Shown here: one piece after another, positions 7,306 through 39,129 of the stretch
Position numbering within the stretch: position 1 is the first letter of the stretch
Layout of the letters: each line of letters begins with the position of its first letter
Assembly (NCBI RefSeq): GCF_003057965.1
Contig: NZ_CP020921.1
Location: 1,561,001-1,625,000 of the forward strand
DNA from: Thermodesulfobium acidiphilum
Lineage (GTDB): Bacteria; Thermodesulfobiota; Thermodesulfobiia; Thermodesulfobiales; Thermodesulfobiaceae
Length of the DNA: 64,000 bases
Direction of reading: 5' to 3'
The notes under the pieces: generated by a model
What the model was told of the DNA's origin: nothing
The model's input: only the letters and a program-made list of their open reading frames with translations
The model's database searches: none
Made by a program: the position numbers and the translations under genes

Positions 7306-9855
7306 ATGGAGTTAGATTTTTATTATGGAAAAGATAAAAAAGAAAGAGAAAGCTTTGTAATATATCACCTGCGCGACCGTCTCCTTTACGGTCGAAAGAT
7401 ATTGTTTGAGAGAACCATCTCAGGTTTCATTGACCCTCTGGAAGTAGAAAGTTATTTAAACAAACTATACAGGGAAGTATGTTCTGACATATTAAAATTC
7501 TGCATAATAGAAGCAAGGGGAGAAGGATTCCCAGAAGAAGATATATGCATAGCTGCTGTTGGTGGTTTTGGTAGATGTGAGATGGCCCCTTATTCAGATA
7601 TTGATTTAGTTTTTTTGTCCCAAAACGAAGAAGGACCTTTTTTAGATAACGTTCTAAAAAGAGGCTACAGACTTTTGTCAGATATCTTTTTTGGTATAGA
7701 TTTAGAAGTCGGCTATAGTTTTAGAACTACAGAAATAAAACACATCGACCACATTACAAGAACCAGCTTTCTAGATTCTAACATTATTTCTGGAGATAAT
7801 AACATATTTCAAGAATTCAAAAGAAATTTTTGGAATAGATTAAACTTAGCAGAATTCATATTTGTAAAGTTATCAGAAAGAGAAATAGCGTCACAAAAGT
7901 TCGGCGATAACCCTTATTTATTAAGCCCAAACTTAAAGGAATGTAGGGGTGGGCTTAGAGATTATCATACATTTAAATGGATTTTTCAGAGTAGGTATGC
8001 ACTTTCAAACTGTTCAATTGCTAAAGATGTAGAAAATACTTATATTTTGGATAAAGATGATATCAATAGGCTCGAATCGTCATATCGATTTCTTAGAAAA
8101 ATAAGAATCTTATTACATATAATGGCCAGAAAAAGACAGGATTATCTTTCAAAAAATTATCAACCAAGGTTAGCAGAATTTTTAGGTTATAAAAACTCAG
8201 TAGAATTTATGAAAGAATTAATTTATTATCTTGAAAATATCTCAGAAATATCAAGCAGAGGAATAAAAAAGATACTTCAAGAAGGTTTTCAAATTTCAAG
8301 TTGCTTCTCAATAAAAGGAAACAGTATTACTTATCAATATGACTCTCCTATTCAAATTTTTAGATTCGATTTCATAAGAGCTTTTGAATATAAATCTCTT
8401 TACGATCTGGAATTATCAGTAAATCTTGAAGAAGAATTTATCAAACAACGCAGCAAACTAAAACCCAATGATGAGACTATGAACGTATTTTTAAAAATCC
8501 TTAAAAATGGAAAAAACAAAGCTTCCATATTAAGAAATATGCAATCTTTGGGTCTGCTTGAAATACTGATACCAGAAACCAGGGGAATTTTTTATACTTT
8601 ACCCGAAGATCCCATGCACGAATTTACTATTGGAGAACACACAATGGTTATGATTGAAACTCTCGAAATGTTTGAAAGAGGCGATTTTGGACAAGAAATA
8701 GCAGAAATATTTAATTCTTTATCAAACCCACTTGTTTTATATCTTGCAGCTTTATTTCATGATATTGCAAAGTTAAAAAATTCAGAAAATCACGATATAG
8801 AAGGTGCAAAAATATTTTCTAACTGGGCAAAAAAAACTAGATTAGATCAGAATACTATAAATAACGTTAGTTTTATCATAGCAAACCATCTTCAAATGGT
8901 AAGAACTTCAAGATTAAGAGACCTTCACAGAGAAGAAACTATTGAAGAATTCGCTCAATTAGTTTCAGACACGGAAAGGTTAAAAAACTTATATCTTATT
9001 TCTTATGCAGATTTATATTCTTTGTCAAAAAAGAAACCAAGCCCGATATCAATTTATCAGCTAAACGAGCTTTTTAAAAAGAGTCAATCAAATTTACTAA
9101 GGCCTGCATCAAAAACAGACTTTAAAGACGTATTTAAAAAGAATATAAAAAAGAATCTGCCAAACAAAGATGAAATAAATCTCTATATTGACAACATGCC
9201 TGCTACTTATTTAATGAACATACCACAAGAAATTATTGCGTTTCATTTGGACCTTATTTCCAGATTAAAAAACGAAACGCCTCAAGTATATTTTGAAGAA
9301 TCAATCAACAAAGACTTTTCTAAAGTTACAATTGCTACATATGAGATTGAAGGGCTCCTGTGGAAAATAGCAGCAGTATTTTATGCTCACAATTTAGATA
9401 TCCACACCGCTGAATTATACAAGTTCTCCACAAAACCACCGGTAGTAATTAACGAAATTTGGACAACTTTCAAAAACAAACCAGTTCCTGAGTTTTTAGC
9501 GCAATCAGTACAGAAAGATTTGCGCGATACTCTTAGTTTAAAAAGAGATATATTTGAACTATTAAGACAGAAAAACAAAGATATAGAATTTCCCGTAAAG
9601 CTTTTCAACGTTAATTGTTTAAACAATATATCCCCTAAATCAACTGTCATAGAAATAATAGCTGAAGATAGACACGGACTTTTGTATAGGTTAACTCAGA
9701 CCCTATCCTCTCTTGGACTTTACATACAAACAGCAAAAATTTCCACCTGGGAAGGTAGAGCTGAGGATGCATTTTATATTACAAAGGAAAATAACTTAAA
9801 GTTAAGTGAGCAAGAATGCCAAGAATATTTGAAAAAAATAGTTTACCATATATAA
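7306..9855 (+). CDS. glnD: PII uridylyltransferase / uridylyl-removing enzyme GlnD
   Basis: This 849-residue enzyme has the GlnD domain order: nucleotidyltransferase with GGFGRCEMAPYSDID at 86-100, the GlnD/PII-UTase middle with CRGGLRDYHTFKW, an HD domain with LAALFHDIAK, and two C-terminal ACT domains (KVTIATYEIEGLLWKIAAVF and VIEIIAEDRHGLLYRLTQTL). It uridylylates PII under nitrogen limitation and removes UMP when glutamine binds the ACT domains. No glnB is in the window, though an ammonium transporter ends at the right edge. The ATG at 7306 has no ribosome site. Confidence 0.92.
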   Translation: MELDFYYGKDKKERESFVIYHLRDRLLYGRKILFERTISGFIDPLEVESYLNKLYREVCSDILKFCIIEARGEGFPEEDICIAAVGGFGRCEMAPYSDIDLVFLSQNEEGPFLDNVLKRGYRLLSDIFFGIDLEVGYSFRTTEIKHIDHITRTSFLDSNIISGDNNIFQEFKRNFWNRLNLAEFIFVKLSEREIASQKFGDNPYLLSPNLKECRGGLRDYHTFKWIFQSRYALSNCSIAKDVENTYILDKDDINRLESSYRFLRKIRILLHIMARKRQDYLSKNYQPRLAEFLGYKNSVEFMKELIYYLENISEISSRGIKKILQEGFQISSCFSIKGNSITYQYDSPIQIFRFDFIRAFEYKSLYDLELSVNLEEEFIKQRSKLKPNDETMNVFLKILKNGKNKASILRNMQSLGLLEILIPETRGIFYTLPEDPMHEFTIGEHTMVMIETLEMFERGDFGQEIAEIFNSLSNPLVLYLAALFHDIAKLKNSENHDIEGAKIFSNWAKKTRLDQNTINNVSFIIANHLQMVRTSRLRDLHREETIEEFAQLVSDTERLKNLYLISYADLYSLSKKKPSPISIYQLNELFKKSQSNLLRPASKTDFKDVFKKNIKKNLPNKDEINLYIDNMPATYLMNIPQEIIAFHLDLISRLKNETPQVYFEESINKDFSKVTIATYEIEGLLWKIAAVFYAHNLDIHTAELYKFSTKPPVVINEIWTTFKNKPVPEFLAQSVQKDLRDTLSLKRDIFELLRQKNKDIEFPVKLFNVNCLNNISPKSTVIEIIAEDRHGLLYRLTQTLSSLGLYIQTAKISTWEGRAEDAFYITKENNLKLSEQECQEYLKKIVYHI

Positions 9856-9900
9856 TTTCTAATTTGCTCTACGTCAAATAAACTTATTAAGAACCATTTA

Positions 9901-9917
9901 AGGAGGAAAAAACAATA
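9901..9917 (+). promoter_or_regulatory. Ideal Shine-Dalgarno leading to an ATA codon
   Basis: AGGAGG (9901-9906) is followed after eight bases by ATA (9915-9917), in frame with the M20-like gene. Between the upstream TAA (9888-9890) and this site no ATG, GTG or TTG occurs in frame. The next usable codon, TTG at 9981, has no ribosome site and would remove 22 residues. Confidence 0.6.
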
Positions 9918-11114
9918 GATATCAAGAAAATAATCGAAGATTTTTCAAAAATTAGTTCTAAGAATGAAGAAGTCTTTCGCTTGGGATATTCAGAGGAAGA
10001 AGATAAAGCTATTAGTTATGTTTTGAAATTACTTCCAAAAAATTTTGAAATCAAAACAGATAATATCGGAAATTTGATCGCAATGCACAATCAAGATCCT
10101 TTATCCCAAAAGGTTTTACTCGGTATTCATCTTGATACAATGCCATTTAGCGGCAAATATTCATCGTCACTTCCTATGATAGTAGCAATTGGTTCTATCA
10201 ACAAATTGTTAGAAAAGGATTTTTATCCGAAGAAAACAGTGGGCTTAATAATCTTTAGAGCCACTTCTCCAAACAGGTTTTCCAGGGGTTGCATCGGTTC
10301 AAGAGGAGCGGTAGGAGAGCTAAACGAAAGAGATCTGTATCTCTCAGACAAAGACGGAGTATTGCTGCAAGATGAAGTAATAAAGAGAAGCCTTGGGCTT
10401 TCAAGCAGTTTTCCTACCTTTTTTAAAGACGATGTACATACTTTTTTAGAGATAGAAAGCGACTTTTCTGGTATATTGAGCGAAAAATCTGTTCCACTTT
10501 GTATGGTAAAAAATCAACAAGGCCCAGTTATTTTAAAATTATCCATCGTAGGCAAAATTCAATATACCTGTTGCACTCCATTTAATTTAATTAGAGGTCC
10601 TTTAAATGCTTTTATAAAAATTTTAGATCTTCTTTATAAAATGATAAAAGAGAATAATCTATTCGGTGGAGTATACGAGGTTAATATGGAACCAAAAGTC
10701 ATGGGAGTCTTTCCAAACAGAATAAACTTTAACCTTGATCTTAGATCCCCAGATCTAAAGTTAAGAAGTGAACTTCTTAATAATCTAAAAACTATGATAA
10801 ACAAAATATCTGAAGAAGAAAGTTGCCAAATAGATATTTTAAGCCAAATATCTCATTCTCCTCACATCTTTTCTGATAAATTAATCGAAATTTCAAAAAG
10901 GGTATTTTTAAAAAAGAATATCAAACTTATAACAATTGACACTGGAATCTTATCCAATGCAAGGTGGATGAGTCTGGTAAGTCAGGAAACAGGAATGGTG
11001 TTATTAAGATACAAGAAAGGAAATTCGCCTGAAAAAGAAGATATAAACGAAAATGATATAATCCTAAGTATTGATGTTGTAAGTAACATATTAAGGGAGA
11101 GGGTTTCTTTATGA
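9915..11114 (+). CDS. M20-family hydrolase homologue with degenerate active site
   Basis: The frame from ATA 9915 gives 399 residues beginning DIKKIIEDFSKISSKNEE, a normal M20 N-terminus. The fold fits the HyuC/allantoate amidohydrolase branch: LLGIHLDTMPFSGKY, FLEIESDFSGIL, then RINFNLDLRSPD. Only the first His and Asp (HLD, about 72-74) of the metal site survive. The family's YDG is YSS, the ELHIEQGP segment is EIESDFSG, the HAGTTP loop is YTCCTP, and the C-terminal GHDA is LSNA. It is therefore probably not a metallohydrolase and may be a binding or regulatory protein. Its stop overlaps the rapZ start (ATGA), so it is co-translated with the RapZ-YvcK unit. Confidence 0.65.
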   Translation: MDIKKIIEDFSKISSKNEEVFRLGYSEEEDKAISYVLKLLPKNFEIKTDNIGNLIAMHNQDPLSQKVLLGIHLDTMPFSGKYSSSLPMIVAIGSINKLLEKDFYPKKTVGLIIFRATSPNRFSRGCIGSRGAVGELNERDLYLSDKDGVLLQDEVIKRSLGLSSSFPTFFKDDVHTFLEIESDFSGILSEKSVPLCMVKNQQGPVILKLSIVGKIQYTCCTPFNLIRGPLNAFIKILDLLYKMIKENNLFGGVYEVNMEPKVMGVFPNRINFNLDLRSPDLKLRSELLNNLKTMINKISEEESCQIDILSQISHSPHIFSDKLIEISKRVFLKKNIKLITIDTGILSNARWMSLVSQETGMVLLRYKKGNSPEKEDINENDIILSIDVVSNILRERVSL

Positions 11115-15434: not shown

Positions 15435-16625
15435 ATGGAATTTAATAAAAAGTTACTTATAGATTTTCCCGTTTATCAGCTAGAAGGTAAAAGAGTTTTC
15501 GTAAGAGCAGATTTAAACGATCCGGCAGATTCTGATGGCAATCTCACAGGAGATATGAGAATAAGAGCAGTGTTGCCTACAATTGGCTATCTGGTAAACG
15601 CAAGAGCAAAGGTAATTCTTGCATCCCACTTTGGTCGTCCAAAAAATAGAGAAAAAGAATTCTCTTTAAGAGGTGTAAAGAAAAGGCTTGAAGAACTATC
15701 GAGCTTTAGAATTCACCTTGCACCTGACTGTCAGGGAGAAGATGTTGTTAAATTGTCAAAAGAATTAAAAAATGGAGAAGTTTTACTACTCGAAAACCTT
15801 AGATTTTGTCCAGGAGAAACTAAAAACGATCCAGAATATGCAAGATTTTTAGCCTCGCTTGGAGATATATATGTAGCAGAAGCATTCGGAGCATGCCACA
15901 GAGAACATGCATCAATTTCATCAGTACCAAAGTTAATACCTTCCATGGCAGGGTTTCTATTGGCAAAAGAAATAAATACTTTAAACAAGTTATTACACAA
16001 TCCCGAACAACCGCTAGTAGTAGTGGCAGGAGGCAAAAAGGTTTCTGACAAAATAAAGGTAATAGGGAATCTAATAGACAAAGTAGACAGTATTTGCGTG
16101 GGCGGTGGAATGAGCTTTGCATTTCTAAAAGCAAAAGGATATGAAATTGGAAAATCATATGTAGAAGATAATATGGACGCTGTAGCAAAGGAAATACTTG
16201 GAAAAAATGGGAAAAAGATATTATTACCTGTAGACGTAATGGTAGCAAAAGAATTAAGGCCTGCATCAGAATCCAAAGTAGTAAATGTAGACGAAATCCC
16301 ATCCGACTGGTATGGAGTTGACATAGGGCCAAAGACTATAGAAATGTTTAAAGCTCAAATATCAAAGGCAAAAACAATATTCTGGAATGGCCCACTTGGA
16401 ATTGTTGAGATTCCAGACTTTTCGTACGGAACAAGAATAGTAGGTTTATACATTGCACTTTCATCCGCAATCACTGTATCTGGGGGAGGAGACACTGCTG
16501 AAGTTGTAAGAATGATGAATCTTGATCAACACTTCACTCACGTATCAACAGGCGGTGGAGCCGCATTAAAATTCTTAGAAGGAGCTGATCTACCCGGCAT
16601 ATCAGTTCTTCCAGAAAGGAGCTAA
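15435..16625 (+). CDS. pgk: Phosphoglycerate kinase
   Basis: The 396-residue enzyme transfers phosphate between 1,3-bisphosphoglycerate and ADP. Visible motifs are RVFVRADLNDP near residue 19, ILASHFGRPK, the nucleotide-binding GGKKVSDKIKVIGNLID, and the C-terminal GGGDTAEVVRMM and STGGGAALKFLEG. The start follows AGGGAGG, and the stop lies one base before tpiA. It sits 93 bp after gap; the space is T-rich without a clear terminator. Confidence 0.96.
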   Translation: MEFNKKLLIDFPVYQLEGKRVFVRADLNDPADSDGNLTGDMRIRAVLPTIGYLVNARAKVILASHFGRPKNREKEFSLRGVKKRLEELSSFRIHLAPDCQGEDVVKLSKELKNGEVLLLENLRFCPGETKNDPEYARFLASLGDIYVAEAFGACHREHASISSVPKLIPSMAGFLLAKEINTLNKLLHNPEQPLVVVAGGKKVSDKIKVIGNLIDKVDSICVGGGMSFAFLKAKGYEIGKSYVEDNMDAVAKEILGKNGKKILLPVDVMVAKELRPASESKVVNVDEIPSDWYGVDIGPKTIEMFKAQISKAKTIFWNGPLGIVEIPDFSYGTRIVGLYIALSSAITVSGGGDTAEVVRMMNLDQHFTHVSTGGGAALKFLEGADLPGISVLPERS

Positions 16626-16626
16626 A

Positions 16627-17325
16627 ATGAATTACGCTATTGCAAACTTTAAAATGAACAAAACTTCAGATGAAGTTGAAGAATATGTTTGTGAATTAAG
16701 ACAAAACCTAAAAAATAATGTAAAAACCGTAATTTGTCCCTCCTTTGTTTCTCTTGAAAGGGCTGTAAAAGCATCCTTCGGATCCTTAATTGACATCGGC
16801 GCTCAAAACCTATTTTTTGAAGAAAAAGGCGCCTTTACAGGCGAGATATCTATTGGAATGTTAGAGAATATAGGAGTAAAATACGCGATAATAGGTCACT
16901 CTGAAAGGAGACAATACTTCAAAGAATCAGATGACTTATTACTAAAAAAGGTTAAAGCAGCAGCCAACAGATTAAAGGTAATTTATTGCTTTGGTGAGAC
17001 AGAAGAGGAAAAAGATTCTGGTAAATCACTTGAAGTAACGTTTAATCAGTTAAATCTGGTAAAAAGCTTTTTTGAGAAGATAATTTTAGCATACGAACCA
17101 GTCTGGGCAATAGGAACTGGCAAAACTGCTAATGCAGGAGAATCATTTGCTTTAATTAAAGAATTAGAATCGAAATTAGGAAGCCTCCCAGATTGCCTTT
17201 ATGGAGGATCGGTCAATCATAAAAATGCAAAATCATTTATTGACGCTGGATTTAAAGGTGTACTGGTTGGTTCTGCAAGTCTTGATGTAAAAGAATTTTC
17301 AAAAATTATAGAAGAAATGTCTTAA
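16627..17325 (+). CDS. tpiA: Triosephosphate isomerase
   Basis: At 232 residues this is slightly shorter than the usual 250. Catalytic residues are all present: Lys in IANFKMNKT (family ANWKMNK), His in YAIIGHSERRQYF and Glu in AYEPVWAIGTGK, plus the phosphate-binding YGGSVNHKN. It interconverts dihydroxyacetone phosphate and glyceraldehyde 3-phosphate. It begins one base after pgk, with AAAGGAG as ribosome site inside the pgk end. Confidence 0.96.
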   Translation: MNYAIANFKMNKTSDEVEEYVCELRQNLKNNVKTVICPSFVSLERAVKASFGSLIDIGAQNLFFEEKGAFTGEISIGMLENIGVKYAIIGHSERRQYFKESDDLLLKKVKAAANRLKVIYCFGETEEEKDSGKSLEVTFNQLNLVKSFFEKIILAYEPVWAIGTGKTANAGESFALIKELESKLGSLPDCLYGGSVNHKNAKSFIDAGFKGVLVGSASLDVKEFSKIIEEMS

Positions 17326-34433: not shown

Positions 34434-34481
34434 AAAATAATTTTTAGACTATAGCATCCTTTTTATTTTTTAGTCTCATTT

Positions 34482-34524
34482 TTGACACTTTATGATATAA
34501 TATGTAGTATAAGTATTGATACTA
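34482..34524 (+). promoter_or_regulatory. Promoter and inverted repeat of the ORP-type cluster
   Basis: An extended -10 TGATATAAT (34493-34501) is followed by an inverted repeat TAGTAT (34505-34510) / ATACTA (34519-34524). TTGACA at 34482-34487 also pairs with TAGTAT at 17 bases, so two start sites are possible. The repeat lies at the transcription start, where a repressor would act. No sigma-54 -24/-12 GG-GC element is seen. Confidence 0.5.
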
Positions 34525-34549: not shown

Positions 34550-35134
34550 TTGAAAGTAGCATTATCTGTACACAACGAAATTATTGCTCCCGTTTTCGAT
34601 TCATCAAACAATATAGAAATTATCGAAATCGATAACAGCAAAATTAACAGTAGAAAGGTATATAAAATTGATTTAGCAGATATTTTTAGTTTCTTCCTGA
34701 GAAATAGTGTTGATTTAATTATCTGTGGAGCAATTAGCAAACAACTTGAATTTCAACTATCAGCACTATCCAAAGTTATCCCATTCATATGTGGAAGCAA
34801 AGAAGAAATTATTTCAGCACTTTTGAAAAACAAAAACTTTAGCGACTTTTTAATGCCAGGATGTAAAAGAAACAGGTTTAGAGGCGATTTTTTAAAAAAT
34901 TATATTTCAAAAGGAGTGACCAAAATGCCAAGAGGCGATGGAACAGGACCATTAGGACAGGGACCATTAGGTGCTGGACAGGGCAGAGGAAGAGGCCGCA
35001 TGGGAGGACAGGGTTTTGGACCTGGAGGAGAATGTGTGTGCCCTAACTGTGGAACAAGAATTCCACACAGACCAGGAGTACCATGTGTACAGGAAAAGTG
35101 CCCAAAATGTGGAACAATGATGATTAGAGGTTAA
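34550..35134 (+). CDS. NifX-like domain fused to DUF5320 and zinc ribbon
   Basis: Residues 1-110 resemble the dinitrogenase Fe-Mo cofactor-binding (NifX/NifB C-terminal) fold, starting KVALSVHNEIIAPVFDSSN, with VDLIICGAISKQLEFQLSAL. Residues 126-160 are MPRGDGTGPLGQGPLGAGQ followed by a Gly/Arg-rich stretch, the start of DUF5320 proteins. Residues 162-190 are a zinc ribbon (CVCPNCGTRIP and CPKCGTM). Met126 is preceded by its own AAAGGAG (34910-34916) and an ATG at 34925, in frame, so a separate 69-residue product may also be made. The main start is TTG at 34550 after GGAAAGG. Role: probably metal-cluster handling with the MinD proteins downstream. Confidence 0.7.
   Translation: MKVALSVHNEIIAPVFDSSNNIEIIEIDNSKINSRKVYKIDLADIFSFFLRNSVDLIICGAISKQLEFQLSALSKVIPFICGSKEEIISALLKNKNFSDFLMPGCKRNRFRGDFLKNYISKGVTKMPRGDGTGPLGQGPLGAGQGRGRGRMGGQGFGPGGECVCPNCGTRIPHRPGVPCVQEKCPKCGTMMIRG
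34925..34966 (+). repeat. 42-bp exact repeat, copy 1
   Basis: The 42 bases from the internal ATG at 34925 (14 codons, MPRGDGTGPLGQGP) are identical to 35399-35440, including all third positions. The ribosome sites before both copies are also similar. Confidence 0.9.
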
Positions 35135-35167
35135 AAAATCTGTGAATATCTTAGAAAGCAAAAAACT

Positions 35168-35377
35168 ATGAGAGGCATAAGAAGAGGAAATCCTCGTCAC
35201 ATTGGATGGCACAGATACCCTTATGGCAATACTTTTATAAGTGATAGATCTTCCATAGTACTTTTGATATTTTTCATAGGGCTCATTATTTCTCTAGTGA
35301 TGGGCAAGATTGAACTGGTAGTTGGTTGGACTATAGTTTTCTTATTCTTGTGGTTTTTGAGATTTTTTAGATTATAA
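35168..35377 (+). CDS. Small membrane protein in ORP-type cluster
   Basis: A 69-residue protein with a basic, Arg/His-rich N-terminus (MRGIRRGNPRHIGWHRYPYG) and two hydrophobic segments at about 28-45 and 49-68, ending FLFLWFLRFFRL. It lies between the two DUF5320-bearing genes in the same direction. The ribosome site is weak. It is not recognised; it could anchor the cluster's proteins to the membrane. Confidence 0.5.
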   Translation: MRGIRRGNPRHIGWHRYPYGNTFISDRSSIVLLIFFIGLIISLVMGKIELVVGWTIVFLFLWFLRFFRL

Positions 35378-35398
35378 CCTTGAAAGGAGGTGACAGTA

Positions 35399-35440
35399 AT
35401 GCCAAGAGGCGATGGAACAGGACCATTAGGACAGGGACCA
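35399..35440 (+). repeat. 42-bp exact repeat, copy 2
   Basis: Identical to 34925-34966 over 42 bases, then diverging (next codons ATG ACC versus TTA GGT). This suggests a recent duplication or gene conversion of the DUF5320 N-terminus. Confidence 0.9.
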
Positions 35441-35704
35441 ATGACCGGCAGAGGTCTTGGATATTGTTCTGGCAATACTCTACCAGGATTTGCTGCAGCA
35501 GGATATAGGATTGGAAGAGGATTTTTTGGACGTGGTAGAAGATTCTTTTGCAGAGGATTAGGTTGGGTAGGCTTACCAATATACAGTGCATACAATAACC
35601 CACAAGCAGAAAAGAGCTTTTTACAAAATCAACTAAATGCACTTGAAAAAGCTGTAGAAGTTATAAAGGATAGACTAAATTCCATAGAAAAAGAAAAAGA
35701 ATAA
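35399..35704 (+). CDS. DUF5320 domain protein
   Basis: The 101-residue product begins MPRGDGTGPLGQGPMTGRGL, followed by a Gly/Arg/Phe-rich region with two isolated Cys, and ends in a coiled coil (FLQNQLNALEKAVEVIKDRL). DUF5320 proteins regularly accompany NifX-like and MinD-like genes in anaerobes; their function is unknown. The ATG at 35399 follows a full-length AAAGGAGGTGA at correct spacing. Confidence 0.75.
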   Translation: MPRGDGTGPLGQGPMTGRGLGYCSGNTLPGFAAAGYRIGRGFFGRGRRFFCRGLGWVGLPIYSAYNNPQAEKSFLQNQLNALEKAVEVIKDRLNSIEKEKE

Positions 35705-35711
35705 AAATAAG

Positions 35712-35737
35712 TAGGAGAGGACGATTGTCCTCTCCTA
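35712..35737 (+). terminator. Stem-loop between DUF5320 gene and ORP gene
   Basis: TAGGAGAGGAC (35712-35722) pairs perfectly over 11 bp with GTCCTCTCCTA (35727-35737) around a GATT tetraloop. It is followed by TCTTTAGTT, a weak U tract, so it may be a partial terminator or a 3' stabilising stem that sets the ratio between upstream genes and orp. Confidence 0.6.
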
Positions 35738-35787
35738 TCTTTAGTTAGATACACATTAATTATTTAATTTACTATTAGGAGGTAGAT

Positions 35788-36150
35788 ATGAAAGTTGCTT
35801 TTACATCACAAGGAAATAGTTTAGATTCACAATTTGATGAAAGATTTGGAAGAGCAATGTACTTTATAATTTATGATACAGATACCAATGAAACTAAGGT
35901 GTTAGAAAATATGGCAGGGGTAGAATCTGCTCATGGGGCAGGGATTAGTGCCGCTAAAAAGTTAGTCGATGCTAAAGTTGATGCCCTGGTTACGGGTAAT
36001 TGTGGGCCAAATGCCTTTTATGTTTTATCTGAAAACAACATCAAAATCTACCTATCAAATGCAAAAACTGTAAAAGAAGCTATAGAAGAATTTAAAAATA
36101 AAAAACTTGAAATAGCAAGTTCACCCACAAAGGGTGGACATTGGAGATGA
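35788..36150 (+). CDS. Orange protein (ORP)-like NifX family protein
   Basis: The 120-residue protein begins MKVAFTSQGNSLDSQFDERF, with VTGNCGPNAFYVL at about 69-81, matching the NifX/MTH1175 family that includes Desulfovibrio ORP. ORP there carries a Mo-Cu-sulfide cluster and works with MinD-type ATPases encoded nearby, linked to cell division. AGGAGG precedes the ATG. Its stop overlaps the next gene's start (ATGA). A Mo-Cu cofactor here is inference; mobB lies 5 kb away. Confidence 0.8.
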   Translation: MKVAFTSQGNSLDSQFDERFGRAMYFIIYDTDTNETKVLENMAGVESAHGAGISAAKKLVDAKVDALVTGNCGPNAFYVLSENNIKIYLSNAKTVKEAIEEFKNKKLEIASSPTKGGHWR

Positions 36151-37001
36151 CAATAGCTATTGCATCAGGAAAAGGTGGCACAGGCAAAACTACAATTGCA
36201 ACCAACCTTGCAATTGTAGCATCTGAAAAATATGATAGTGTAACTTTATTGGATTGCGATGTAGAAGAACCAAATTCCCATATATTTATAAACGGAAAAA
36301 AAATTAAGGAAGAGGTTGTAAACGTAAGAATTCCTGAGGTTGATGAAAGTCTTTGTACTGAATGCGGAGCATGTAGCAATTTTTGTCAATATAATGCTAT
36401 AGTATCCCTCAAGGGCAAACCAGTTGTTTTCAAAGAAATGTGTCACTCTTGTGGCGGATGTACTCTTGTGTGTCAGCCAAAAGCTATACACGAAGTCGAT
36501 CATAGAATAGGATTGATCAATTTTTATAAATCAGGAAAAATAAATCTCATCGAAGGCCTTTTAGACATTGGAAGCCCATTAAGCCCCCCTTTAATTGGAG
36601 CGGTAAAAGGATATGAAAGTAAAGATACGTTAAATATTATCGATGCCCCTCCAGGAACGTCTTGTCCTGTAATAGAAGCAATAAGGGATGCAGATTATCT
36701 CATTCTTGTAACAGAACCAACTCCCTTTGGCCTAAACGATTTAATTTTAGCAGTTGAAGTATCTCGAAAGTTGAATAAGAAGTTTTCTGTTGCAATAAAT
36801 AGAGTTGGCTCAGGCGATGACAGGGTGCATAAATATTGCAAAAAAGAAAACATCCCAATAATACTAGAAATCCCAGACGACAGGAGAATAGCAGAATTAT
36901 ATTCGAACGGCAAAATTATCTTAGAAAATTTGCCAGAATACAAAAAGTGTTTTGAAGAAGTTTTAGAAAAGATTGGTACGGTGATTCAAAATGGACAATA
37001 A
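36147..37001 (+). CDS. MinD/Mrp-type ATPase with inserted 2[4Fe-4S] ferredoxin domain (1)
   Basis: The 284-residue P-loop ATPase has the deviant Walker A SGKGGTGKTT (7-16) and a ferredoxin insert with CTECGACSNFC (Cys 70, 73, 76, 80) and CHSCGGCTLVC (Cys 99, 102, 105, 109), then DAPPGTSCPV (Walker B region). Paired genes like this flank orp in Desulfovibrio. I start at ATG 36147, overlapping the orp stop, rather than the TTG two codons upstream. It overlaps its partner by 11 bp. Confidence 0.88.
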   Translation: MTIAIASGKGGTGKTTIATNLAIVASEKYDSVTLLDCDVEEPNSHIFINGKKIKEEVVNVRIPEVDESLCTECGACSNFCQYNAIVSLKGKPVVFKEMCHSCGGCTLVCQPKAIHEVDHRIGLINFYKSGKINLIEGLLDIGSPLSPPLIGAVKGYESKDTLNIIDAPPGTSCPVIEAIRDADYLILVTEPTPFGLNDLILAVEVSRKLNKKFSVAINRVGSGDDRVHKYCKKENIPIILEIPDDRRIAELYSNGKIILENLPEYKKCFEEVLEKIGTVIQNGQ

Positions 37002-37866
37002 ACCAAGAGAAATTGTAGTAATAAGTGGAAAAGGCGGAACAGGCAAGACAAGCATTAGCGCTTCTTTAGCTTATCTGTCTAAAGATTGCATAGTCGCAGA
37101 TTGTGATGTAGATGCAGCTGATTTGTATCTTTTACTTAATCCTATTACTGTCGAAAAACATGATTTTTATAGCGGCCACATTGCTAAAATAAACCAGGAA
37201 AAGTGTATAGGATGCGGAACATGTAAGGAGTTATGTAGATTTGATGCCATAAAGAAAAATAATAACAGTAAATTTAGCGTAGAACCAACATCTTGTGAAG
37301 GTTGCAAAGTATGCGTTGAATTTTGTCCTGAAAAGGCGATAGATTTTCTAGAAAGACTTTGTGGAGAGTGGATGAAGTCAGAAACCAGAGTTGGATTTAT
37401 GGTTCATGCAAAATTAGGCATTGCAGCTGAAAATTCTGGTAAACTAGTCTCTTTAATTAGAAATGAAGCAAGAAAACTTGCTCAAGAAAAAGGTAAAAAT
37501 TTGATCATTATTGATGGGCCACCTGGAATAGGATGTCCTGTAATTGCATCTATTACTGGAGCAACTGACGTTTTAGTGGTTACTGAACCAACAATATCGG
37601 GTATTCATGACCTTGAAAGAGTAGTATCACTCGCAAACCACTTCAGAATAAAACCCTATGTAGCAATAAACAAATTTGACCTAAACCCTGAAGTAACAGA
37701 AAAAATTGAAAAAATATCAAATGAGTTGAATGCTCAGGTAGTTGGTAAAATCAGATATGACAAATTAGTCACCAAATCTCAAATAGAAGGAAAAACAATT
37801 GTAGAATCAAATATACCCTCAGCACAAGATATAATTAATATGTGGGAAAGGTTGAAAATTAATTAG
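36991..37866 (+). CDS. MinD/Mrp-type ATPase with inserted 2[4Fe-4S] ferredoxin domain (2)
   Basis: The 291-residue paralogue carries SGKGGTGKTS (12-21), CIGCGTCKELC (Cys 72, 75, 78, 82), CEGCKVCVEFC (Cys 102, 105, 108, 112) and DGPPGIGCPV. The two ATPases probably heterodimerise and insert or transfer a metal cluster to the NifX-type proteins. They overlap by 11 bp, and the regulator gene follows 15 bp later, so all are one transcript. Confidence 0.88.
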   Translation: MDNKPREIVVISGKGGTGKTSISASLAYLSKDCIVADCDVDAADLYLLLNPITVEKHDFYSGHIAKINQEKCIGCGTCKELCRFDAIKKNNNSKFSVEPTSCEGCKVCVEFCPEKAIDFLERLCGEWMKSETRVGFMVHAKLGIAAENSGKLVSLIRNEARKLAQEKGKNLIIIDGPPGIGCPVIASITGATDVLVVTEPTISGIHDLERVVSLANHFRIKPYVAINKFDLNPEVTEKIEKISNELNAQVVGKIRYDKLVTKSQIEGKTIVESNIPSAQDIINMWERLKIN

Positions 37867-37881
37867 TTTGAAGGAGTTGTA

Positions 37882-39129
37882 TTGAAAAACGTCATAGCCC
37901 TTTTTGATATAGATAATATAAATATTTCAGAGGTCAGCACTTTATTATTAGACAACGTAAATGATGGAATATATGCAGTCGATATAGATTTTAAAATAAT
38001 CTTTTTTAACAAAGCAGCTGAACATATCACTGGAGTAACAAAGGAAGAGGCAATAAGCAAAAGGTGCTATGACGTTTTTAGATCGAATATGTGTTTAAAC
38101 AACTGCCCAATAAAGGAAGCTCTTGAAAAGGGTAGCTGTACCAAAAGGCACGGTTATATAATAGATTCTTCTGGGAACAAAGTTTTTATCAGCGTTTCAA
38201 ATGTTTTGATAAAAAATTTATCCAATGAAATAGTAAGTGTGGCACAAGTATTTAGAGATCAATCTGAAATAATGGCTTTAAGAGAAGAAATCCTTAAAGT
38301 CGAAGAAAATTTTTGTTTTACAAGTAAAAATTTACAAATGCAAAAGAACTTTTCTCTCCTAAAAACCGCTTTACCTAATATAAATAAAATCTATATTATT
38401 GGCGAAAAGGGAACAGGCAAAAGCAACCTTGTAAAGTGGATCTTAAAAAACAAAAATATTAAAAATTTTTCGGAATTTTCTTTAAAAACAATTAAAGAAC
38501 TAAATCTGGAAAGAATTTTTTCAGATTTTGATGCAATCCATATAAAAGACTTAGACTTCATAACTAAAGAATTTAAAATAAAGTTATCAAATTTTCTTAA
38601 AAATTTAAGCAATATTAATAATAAGCTTATAATCTTTTCGTCTTCTAAAGATTATTTCCCAAGAGATGAATTTTATTTCAATATTAATGAATTCAAATTT
38701 GAAATAATACCGTTGAGATTTCGCAAAGAAGATATTATGTTTTGCGCTGAAAGCTTTCTGTTTCATTTTAGTAAAATCTACGACAAAAATATTTCAGGCT
38801 TCACTCAAGAAGCAATAAATGCTCTTATTAGTTATGAATTTCCTGAAAACATAGAAGAGCTTAGAAATATCATTGAGAGAGCAGTTCTTATTTGCTCAGA
38901 AGAAAGAATTGATGTAAGTCATTTGCCAGAAACTTTGCAAAAAGAAGTTAATATAAAAGAAGGAATAATTAGTAAAGAAAAAGAAATTATATTAAGCGCT
39001 CTCAAAAAAAATAATTTTAATAGGGACTTAACCGCAAAAGAACTCGGGCTTACAAGAAGTACTTTTTTTAGAAAACTAAAAAAATTAAAAATTGAAGTAC
39101 CAAAATCCAAAAGATCCAGAAAAAATTAA
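37882..39129 (+). CDS. PAS-AAA+-Fis regulator with degenerate AAA+ domain
   Basis: The 415-residue protein has a PAS domain (about 22-128) with the cysteine pattern C62, C71, C75, C86, an AAA+ domain with Walker A GEKGTGK (174-180), RFRKEDIMFCAESFL and FPENIEELRNIIERAV (319-335), and a Fis-type helix-turn-helix (370-405). This is the architecture of bacterial enhancer-binding proteins such as the regulator of the Desulfovibrio orp genes. The GAFTGA loop that contacts sigma-54 is missing, the Walker B segment is not the usual GGTLFLDE, and the Walker A to RxEDI distance is about 30 residues short. It probably controls transcription without sigma-54. It starts at TTG after AAGGAG. Confidence 0.8.
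   Translation: MKNVIALFDIDNINISEVSTLLLDNVNDGIYAVDIDFKIIFFNKAAEHITGVTKEEAISKRCYDVFRSNMCLNNCPIKEALEKGSCTKRHGYIIDSSGNKVFISVSNVLIKNLSNEIVSVAQVFRDQSEIMALREEILKVEENFCFTSKNLQMQKNFSLLKTALPNINKIYIIGEKGTGKSNLVKWILKNKNIKNFSEFSLKTIKELNLERIFSDFDAIHIKDLDFITKEFKIKLSNFLKNLSNINNKLIIFSSSKDYFPRDEFYFNINEFKFEIIPLRFRKEDIMFCAESFLFHFSKIYDKNISGFTQEAINALISYEFPENIEELRNIIERAVLICSEERIDVSHLPETLQKEVNIKEGIISKEKEIILSALKKNNFNRDLTAKELGLTRSTFFRKLKKLKIEVPKSKRSRKN

Follow-up and report, generated by a model that had tools for sequence, protein, structure and literature searches.

The closest described counterpart of the system analysed here is OrpR (DVU2106) of D. vulgaris, which carries a GAFTDA motif (PMC4641369) and represses its own sigma-70 promoter, its binding site overlapping this promoter (PMC3897727). 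Further EBPs have departed from sigma-54, namely TyrR, DhaR, HupR and, probably, VpsR and YplP; EBPs are possessed even by the sigma-54-less Fusobacterium and Jannaschia, and the TyrR paralog PhhR can substitute for TyrR as the repressor of aroF-tyrA (PMC3162934). That GAFTGA-less EBPs operate at sigma-70 promoters is already known. What is new in the locus of Thermodesulfobium acidiphilum described below is the family concerned (OrpR), the extent of the loss, and the preservation of an enhancer pair that has probably been turned into an operator. What becomes of an enhancer-dependent activator once its sigma factor is lost has mostly been a guess based on the protein only; in this locus, protein and DNA sites can both be traced.

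An ORP-type operon ending in an OrpR-family regulator

The window, a 64-kb stretch of the complete 1,774,794-base T. acidiphilum genome, was checked gene by gene, and this genome was compared with those of three congeners. An ORP-type operon occupies positions 34550-39129, with a PAS-AAA+-Fis regulator as its last gene (Table 1); every reading frame was where the first-pass annotation had put it, and the gene set and coordinates proposed there were borne out. The two MinD-type ATPases share 44-49% (ATPase 1) and 49-56% (ATPase 2) identity with their counterparts in sigma-54 orp loci, and a Pfam search returned no match for the small membrane protein.

Table 1. Positions of operon genes, predicted control sites and RNA hairpin in the window
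Feature	Position	Strand	Evidence
Predicted operator O1, AGTCTCATTTTTGACACT, 18-bp palindrome over the -35 position of the 34496 -10 element	34472..34489	.	15/18 columns invariant in four species
-10 element TATAAT	34496..34501	+	Invariant in four species
Predicted operator O2, AGTATAAGTATTGATACT, 34 bp after O1, over the predicted start site	34506..34523	.	One-mismatch copy
First gene: NifX-like domain, Gly-rich MPRGDGTGP segment and zinc ribbon	34550..35134	+	ORF, homologs; TTG start
Small membrane protein, 69 aa	35168..35377	+	ORF; 62-67% identity to congeners
DUF5320 protein	35399..35704	+	PF17253, 97.6 bits
Intercistronic 12-bp RNA hairpin, gap between DUF5320 and ORP genes	35711..35738	+	-21.1 kcal/mol, z -5.4
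ORP-like protein, Nitro_FeMo-Co family	35788..36150	+	PF02579, 84.9 bits
MinD-type ATPase 1 with 4Fe-4S insert	36147..37001	+	CbiA, Fer4
MinD-type ATPase 2 with 4Fe-4S insert	36991..37866	+	CbiA, Fer4, Fer4_21
OrpR-type regulator, degenerate AAA+	37882..39129	+	Domain matches, alignments, tree, predicted structure

The first gene had been described as a NifX-DUF5320-zinc ribbon fusion. Its NifX and zinc-ribbon parts stand; the Gly-rich part opens with a DUF5320-like motif but is not scored as DUF5320 by Pfam. The fusion of NifX and zinc ribbon is no novelty, being a single ORF in several other phyla. Within the gene lies a second in-frame ATG (34925) with a strong Shine-Dalgarno sequence of its own (34910-34927, AAAGGAGTGACCAAAATG), kept in the three congeners, from which the Gly-rich/zinc-ribbon half may additionally be made as a separate protein; comparable in-frame starts occur inside the fused ORFs of other phyla (L042, L044, L051 and L093). 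The intercistronic hairpin is GC-rich, has no good T run and is kept in two congeners although the stem sequence differs. It may be a processing, stabilizing or attenuating element that gives the two halves of the operon different levels. Searching the 64-kb window yielded no Rfam element.

Querying 84,980 species genomes with the second MinD ATPase gave 80 named orp loci. Across these and unnamed relatives, a C-x8-C-x3-C motif in the PAS domain is common to every full-length orp-linked regulator, including that of the window, and all of them, this genus excepted, carry GAFTGA, GAFTDA, GAFTNA or GAYTGA. The window regulator combines this PAS motif with an AAA+ domain and a Fis helix-turn-helix (HTH), as OrpR does, and gene maps place it with NifX/ORP, DUF5320 and two Fe-S MinD ATPases, as in OrpR loci. 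In a tree of ten rows, seven of them intact OrpRs, it nests within OrpR with 99/97 support, and common ancestry with intact OrpR is evident at the level of sequence. The stem branch of the genus is very long (3.66), so that its exact position within OrpR is uncertain; such a stem reads as rapid change that later came back under constraint. In sigma-54 loci the regulator gene nearly always lies ahead of the operon or divergent from it, and its place as last gene of the window operon would imply direct autoregulation.

One deltaproteobacterial orp locus (L106) has two OrpR-type regulators (8798-10246 and 16357-16842, the latter truncated where the contig ends) and one additional EBP. Five others, from Pelotomaculum, a Bacillota bacterium, a Clostridia bacterium and Dehalococcoidia (L064, L066, L076, L125 and L126), have no OrpR near the orp operon, so modes of orp control other than OrpR appear to exist.

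Regulator degeneration in genomes without rpoN

The regulator scores above cut-off for PAS_9, AAA_lid_14 and HTH_8 and below it for Sigma54_activat, and is laid out as PAS (20-135), Walker A (174-181), lid (279-356) and Fis HTH (366-402). The first-pass annotation had it retaining the PAS cysteines, Walker A and the HTH while lacking GAFTGA and a normal Walker B and being about 30 residues short, and each of these points holds. Cys62, Cys71 and Cys75 are present, and Walker A (GE[KRQ]GTGKS) is kept in all four species. The 21-column L1 block that contains GAFTGA is missing from the alignment of the four species, leaving a gap between residues 213 and 214, and predicted secondary structure offers no such loop either. 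In Walker B, LDE has become KDL, with the Asp kept and the Glu lost; sensor I has changed from ATN to FSS, sensor II from R to E, and the second Arg finger to N or I, whereas the first Arg is retained. The ATPase residues left are thus Walker A, the Walker B Asp and the first Arg only, in a protein of 415 residues as against 444 in an intact relative. The predicted structure (pLDDT 80.5) retains the AAA+ strands and lid, and Foldseek matches it to ZraR, NtrX, NtrC1 and VpsR. To judge from these alignments, the regulator has lost all the parts for productive ATP hydrolysis and for pushing on sigma-54. Since Walker A is kept, ATP may still be bound and set the oligomer.

The loss of catalytic residues, together with a core that evolves faster than the rest (dN/dS 0.18 between the window and congener G001, against 0.09 for PAS and 0.06 for the lid), is what might be expected of a functionless, decaying remnant. 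This reading is largely refuted and very improbable: none of the four genomes has a stop or frameshift in the regulator gene, the PAS cysteines, Walker A and HTH have all been retained, and whole-gene dN/dS is 0.06-0.13 in four species pairs, values low enough to reject a pseudogene.

The genome search for rpoN proposed in the first-pass annotation came out negative: in domain searches of the window genome and its three congeners, both the DNA-binding and the core-binding domain of RpoN are absent from all four. By comparison, rpoN is present in four of four tested genomes with an intact orp-linked OrpR (E-values 1e-46 to 1e-65). A literature search found no publication on sigma-54 in this genus. 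The window regulator is the sole protein of its genome above threshold for the Fis-type HTH (HTH_8), and a second EBP serving the operon was rejected on this ground. Stronger Sigma54_activat matches occur in frames of 811 and 825 residues, which from their length we take to be ClpB/ClpC-type ATPases.

A paired site shared with sigma-54 orp loci

Sigma-54 orp loci carry paired 18-bp palindromes that conform to AGTNGCA-N4-TGCNACT, mostly some 80-180 bp upstream of the -24 element, in agreement with the published DVU2106 sites at -131 and -88 (PMC3897727). When the spacing was allowed to vary from 18 to 59 bp, 13 of 17 sigma-54 orp promoters had their best pair of sites at 32-34 bp, compared with 4% in shuffles (p ~2e-15); the AGTNGCA consensus was first spotted in a few of these same loci, spacing being no factor in its choice. 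When palindromes were tested without a consensus, the optimum fell at 33 bp (z 5.6), only a little above 39 bp (5.2). One sigma-54 relative (G033, locus L045) has the same operon, with a perfect TGGCACTAAGCTTGC ahead of the first gene.

The promoter region of the window operon contains a related pair, O1 and O2. In the genus the half-sites take the form AGTNTCA-N4-TGANACT (at 34472), which differs at one position from the form found at sigma-54 loci, and within each of the four genomes O1 alone matches AGTNTCANNNNTGANACT with 0 mismatches. The kinship of O1 with the enhancer palindromes of sigma-54 OrpR loci is mirrored in the spacing of the pair, 34 bp in all four species. The 52-bp block from O1 to O2 is 85-90% identical between species, compared with 39-65% for its upstream flank. 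A matrix built only from foreign sigma-54 sites ranks 34472/34506 first among all pairs 32-34 bp apart in the 64 kb, with a score of 10.6 against 9.6 for the next pair, a modest margin owing to the single half-site difference; O2 alone is weak. As to a wider regulon, a pattern search of the four genomes found one-mismatch sites away from the operon about as frequent as matches to the control pattern.

The assignment of these sites to the regulator is built on co-location and motif kinship, and the palindromes could in principle belong to another transcription factor, the OrpR remnant acting elsewhere or being structural only. We regard this as quite unlikely. The perfect site occurs once per genome and always at the orp operon, in motif and 32-34-bp spacing the pair agrees with the enhancers seen at intact OrpR loci, and the regulator is the operon's own last gene.

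The first-pass annotation had proposed that an extended -10 with an inverted repeat, and no -24/-12 site, drives the cluster. TATAAT and the repeats are conserved in four species; the TG of the extended -10 (34493-34494) is kept in three and missing in one, and what had been read as one inverted repeat is two related 18-bp palindromes. The absence of a -24/-12 element was upheld: none lies upstream of any operon gene, by which a hidden site was likewise rejected. What sets the regulator apart from a sigma-54 EBP is thus the absence of GAFTGA, of most ATPase residues, of rpoN and of a -24/-12 promoter. From sequence, we infer both the operon promoter in use and the form of RNA polymerase that reads it. 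Relative to the predicted start, O1 lies at about -36 to -19 and O2 at -2 to +16. An alternative promoter match combines TTGACA at 34482 with TAGTAT at 34505 across a 17-bp spacer, its hexamers lying inside or edging the palindromes (34482-34510). Transcription is predicted to start at 34508 or near 34517. On either reading of the promoter, a protein on the O1/O2 pair would exclude RNA polymerase.

This geometry bears on a further possibility, that the regulator activates sigma-70 transcription in the manner of R. capsulatus NtrC and VpsR, binding ATP without hydrolysing it and aiding the housekeeping RNA polymerase. R. capsulatus NtrC and VpsR are without GAFTGA and activate at sigma-70 promoters, ATP binding being enough for the former (PMC10274813). 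All four species retain Walker A in the regulator, and VpsR appears among the Foldseek matches of the window protein. Against this, the sites lie over the -35 position and the start site, where a bound protein normally blocks polymerase, and a promoter with a full TATAAT, extended by TG in three species, does not look activator-dependent. Activation of this kind is therefore unlikely.

A proposed path from enhancer pair to operator

Our favoured reading, which we consider probable, is that an OrpR-family sigma-54 activator turned into a sigma-70 autorepressor, and the enhancer pair that had served it into the corresponding operator. The earlier view that the operon must be controlled another way is supported, and the old OrpR enhancer pair lying on a sigma-70-like promoter points to repression. 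Under the autorepressor model, the housekeeping RNA polymerase would read the operon, and two regulator dimers, or one higher oligomer, would occupy both palindromes at their 34-bp spacing. The bound regulator would cover the -35 region and the start site and so block RNA polymerase; a change at the Fe-S/thiol site of the PAS domain would then release it, allowing expression of the operon, the regulator included. The PAS domain of D. vulgaris OrpR reportedly senses redox through a [4Fe-4S] cluster, and by analogy the PAS cysteines here probably hold an Fe-S cluster. We infer binding of the regulator at O1/O2, repression upon binding, the PAS Fe-S cluster and the sign of the signal.

Repression as such would not have had to evolve anew, because D. 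vulgaris OrpR already represses a sigma-70 promoter of its own. The full course of the switch can be proposed with somewhat less assurance, but on balance we favour it: after sigma-54 was lost, the loop and the ATPase would have been shed, with the sensor and the DNA-reading part retained, and a housekeeping promoter would have arisen inside the enhancer pair, turning its two sites into operators with their spacing nearly unchanged. The promoter hexamers themselves may even derive from enhancer sequence, since TTGACA and TAGTAT fall within or at the edge of the sites.

Each half of the system contributes to this picture. On the protein side, exactly the sigma-54 and ATPase parts are lost; on the DNA side, the paired sites and their spacing are kept, now on a predicted sigma-70 promoter. 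A single protein and a single 52-bp element suffice to put the path from enhancer to operator to a direct test, and the proposed reading offers a small redox-type repressor on a bEBP scaffold.

Among known systems, D. vulgaris OrpR resembles the window system in its type of operon, in PAS-AAA+-Fis architecture and in its palindromic sites, including one that overlaps a sigma-70 promoter. The window system differs in having no sigma-54, L1 loop, catalytic AAA+ residues or -24/-12 element, in carrying the site pair on the operon's own promoter, and in having the regulator gene at the operon's end, not ahead of it or in between. TyrR, DhaR and HupR likewise have a lost or altered GAFTGA, and they serve sigma-70 promoters, as is proposed for the window regulator; however, they belong to another family with another sensor, and their GAFTGA changes are described as substitutions or minor deletions. 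The window regulator, by comparison, is without the entire L1 block and the majority of its ATPase residues, and the layout of the ancestral enhancer is still recognizable in the putative operator. The NtrC proteins of Rhodobacter and Caulobacter share an L1 deletion spanning GAFTGA and, on the reading proposed here, regulation at sigma-70 promoters (PMC10274813), and V. cholerae VpsR shares its fold with the window regulator. By contrast, these NtrCs are response regulators and their genomes retain sigma-54, Walker B is still required in Caulobacter NtrC, and R. capsulatus NtrC and VpsR are activators, unlike the repressor proposed here.
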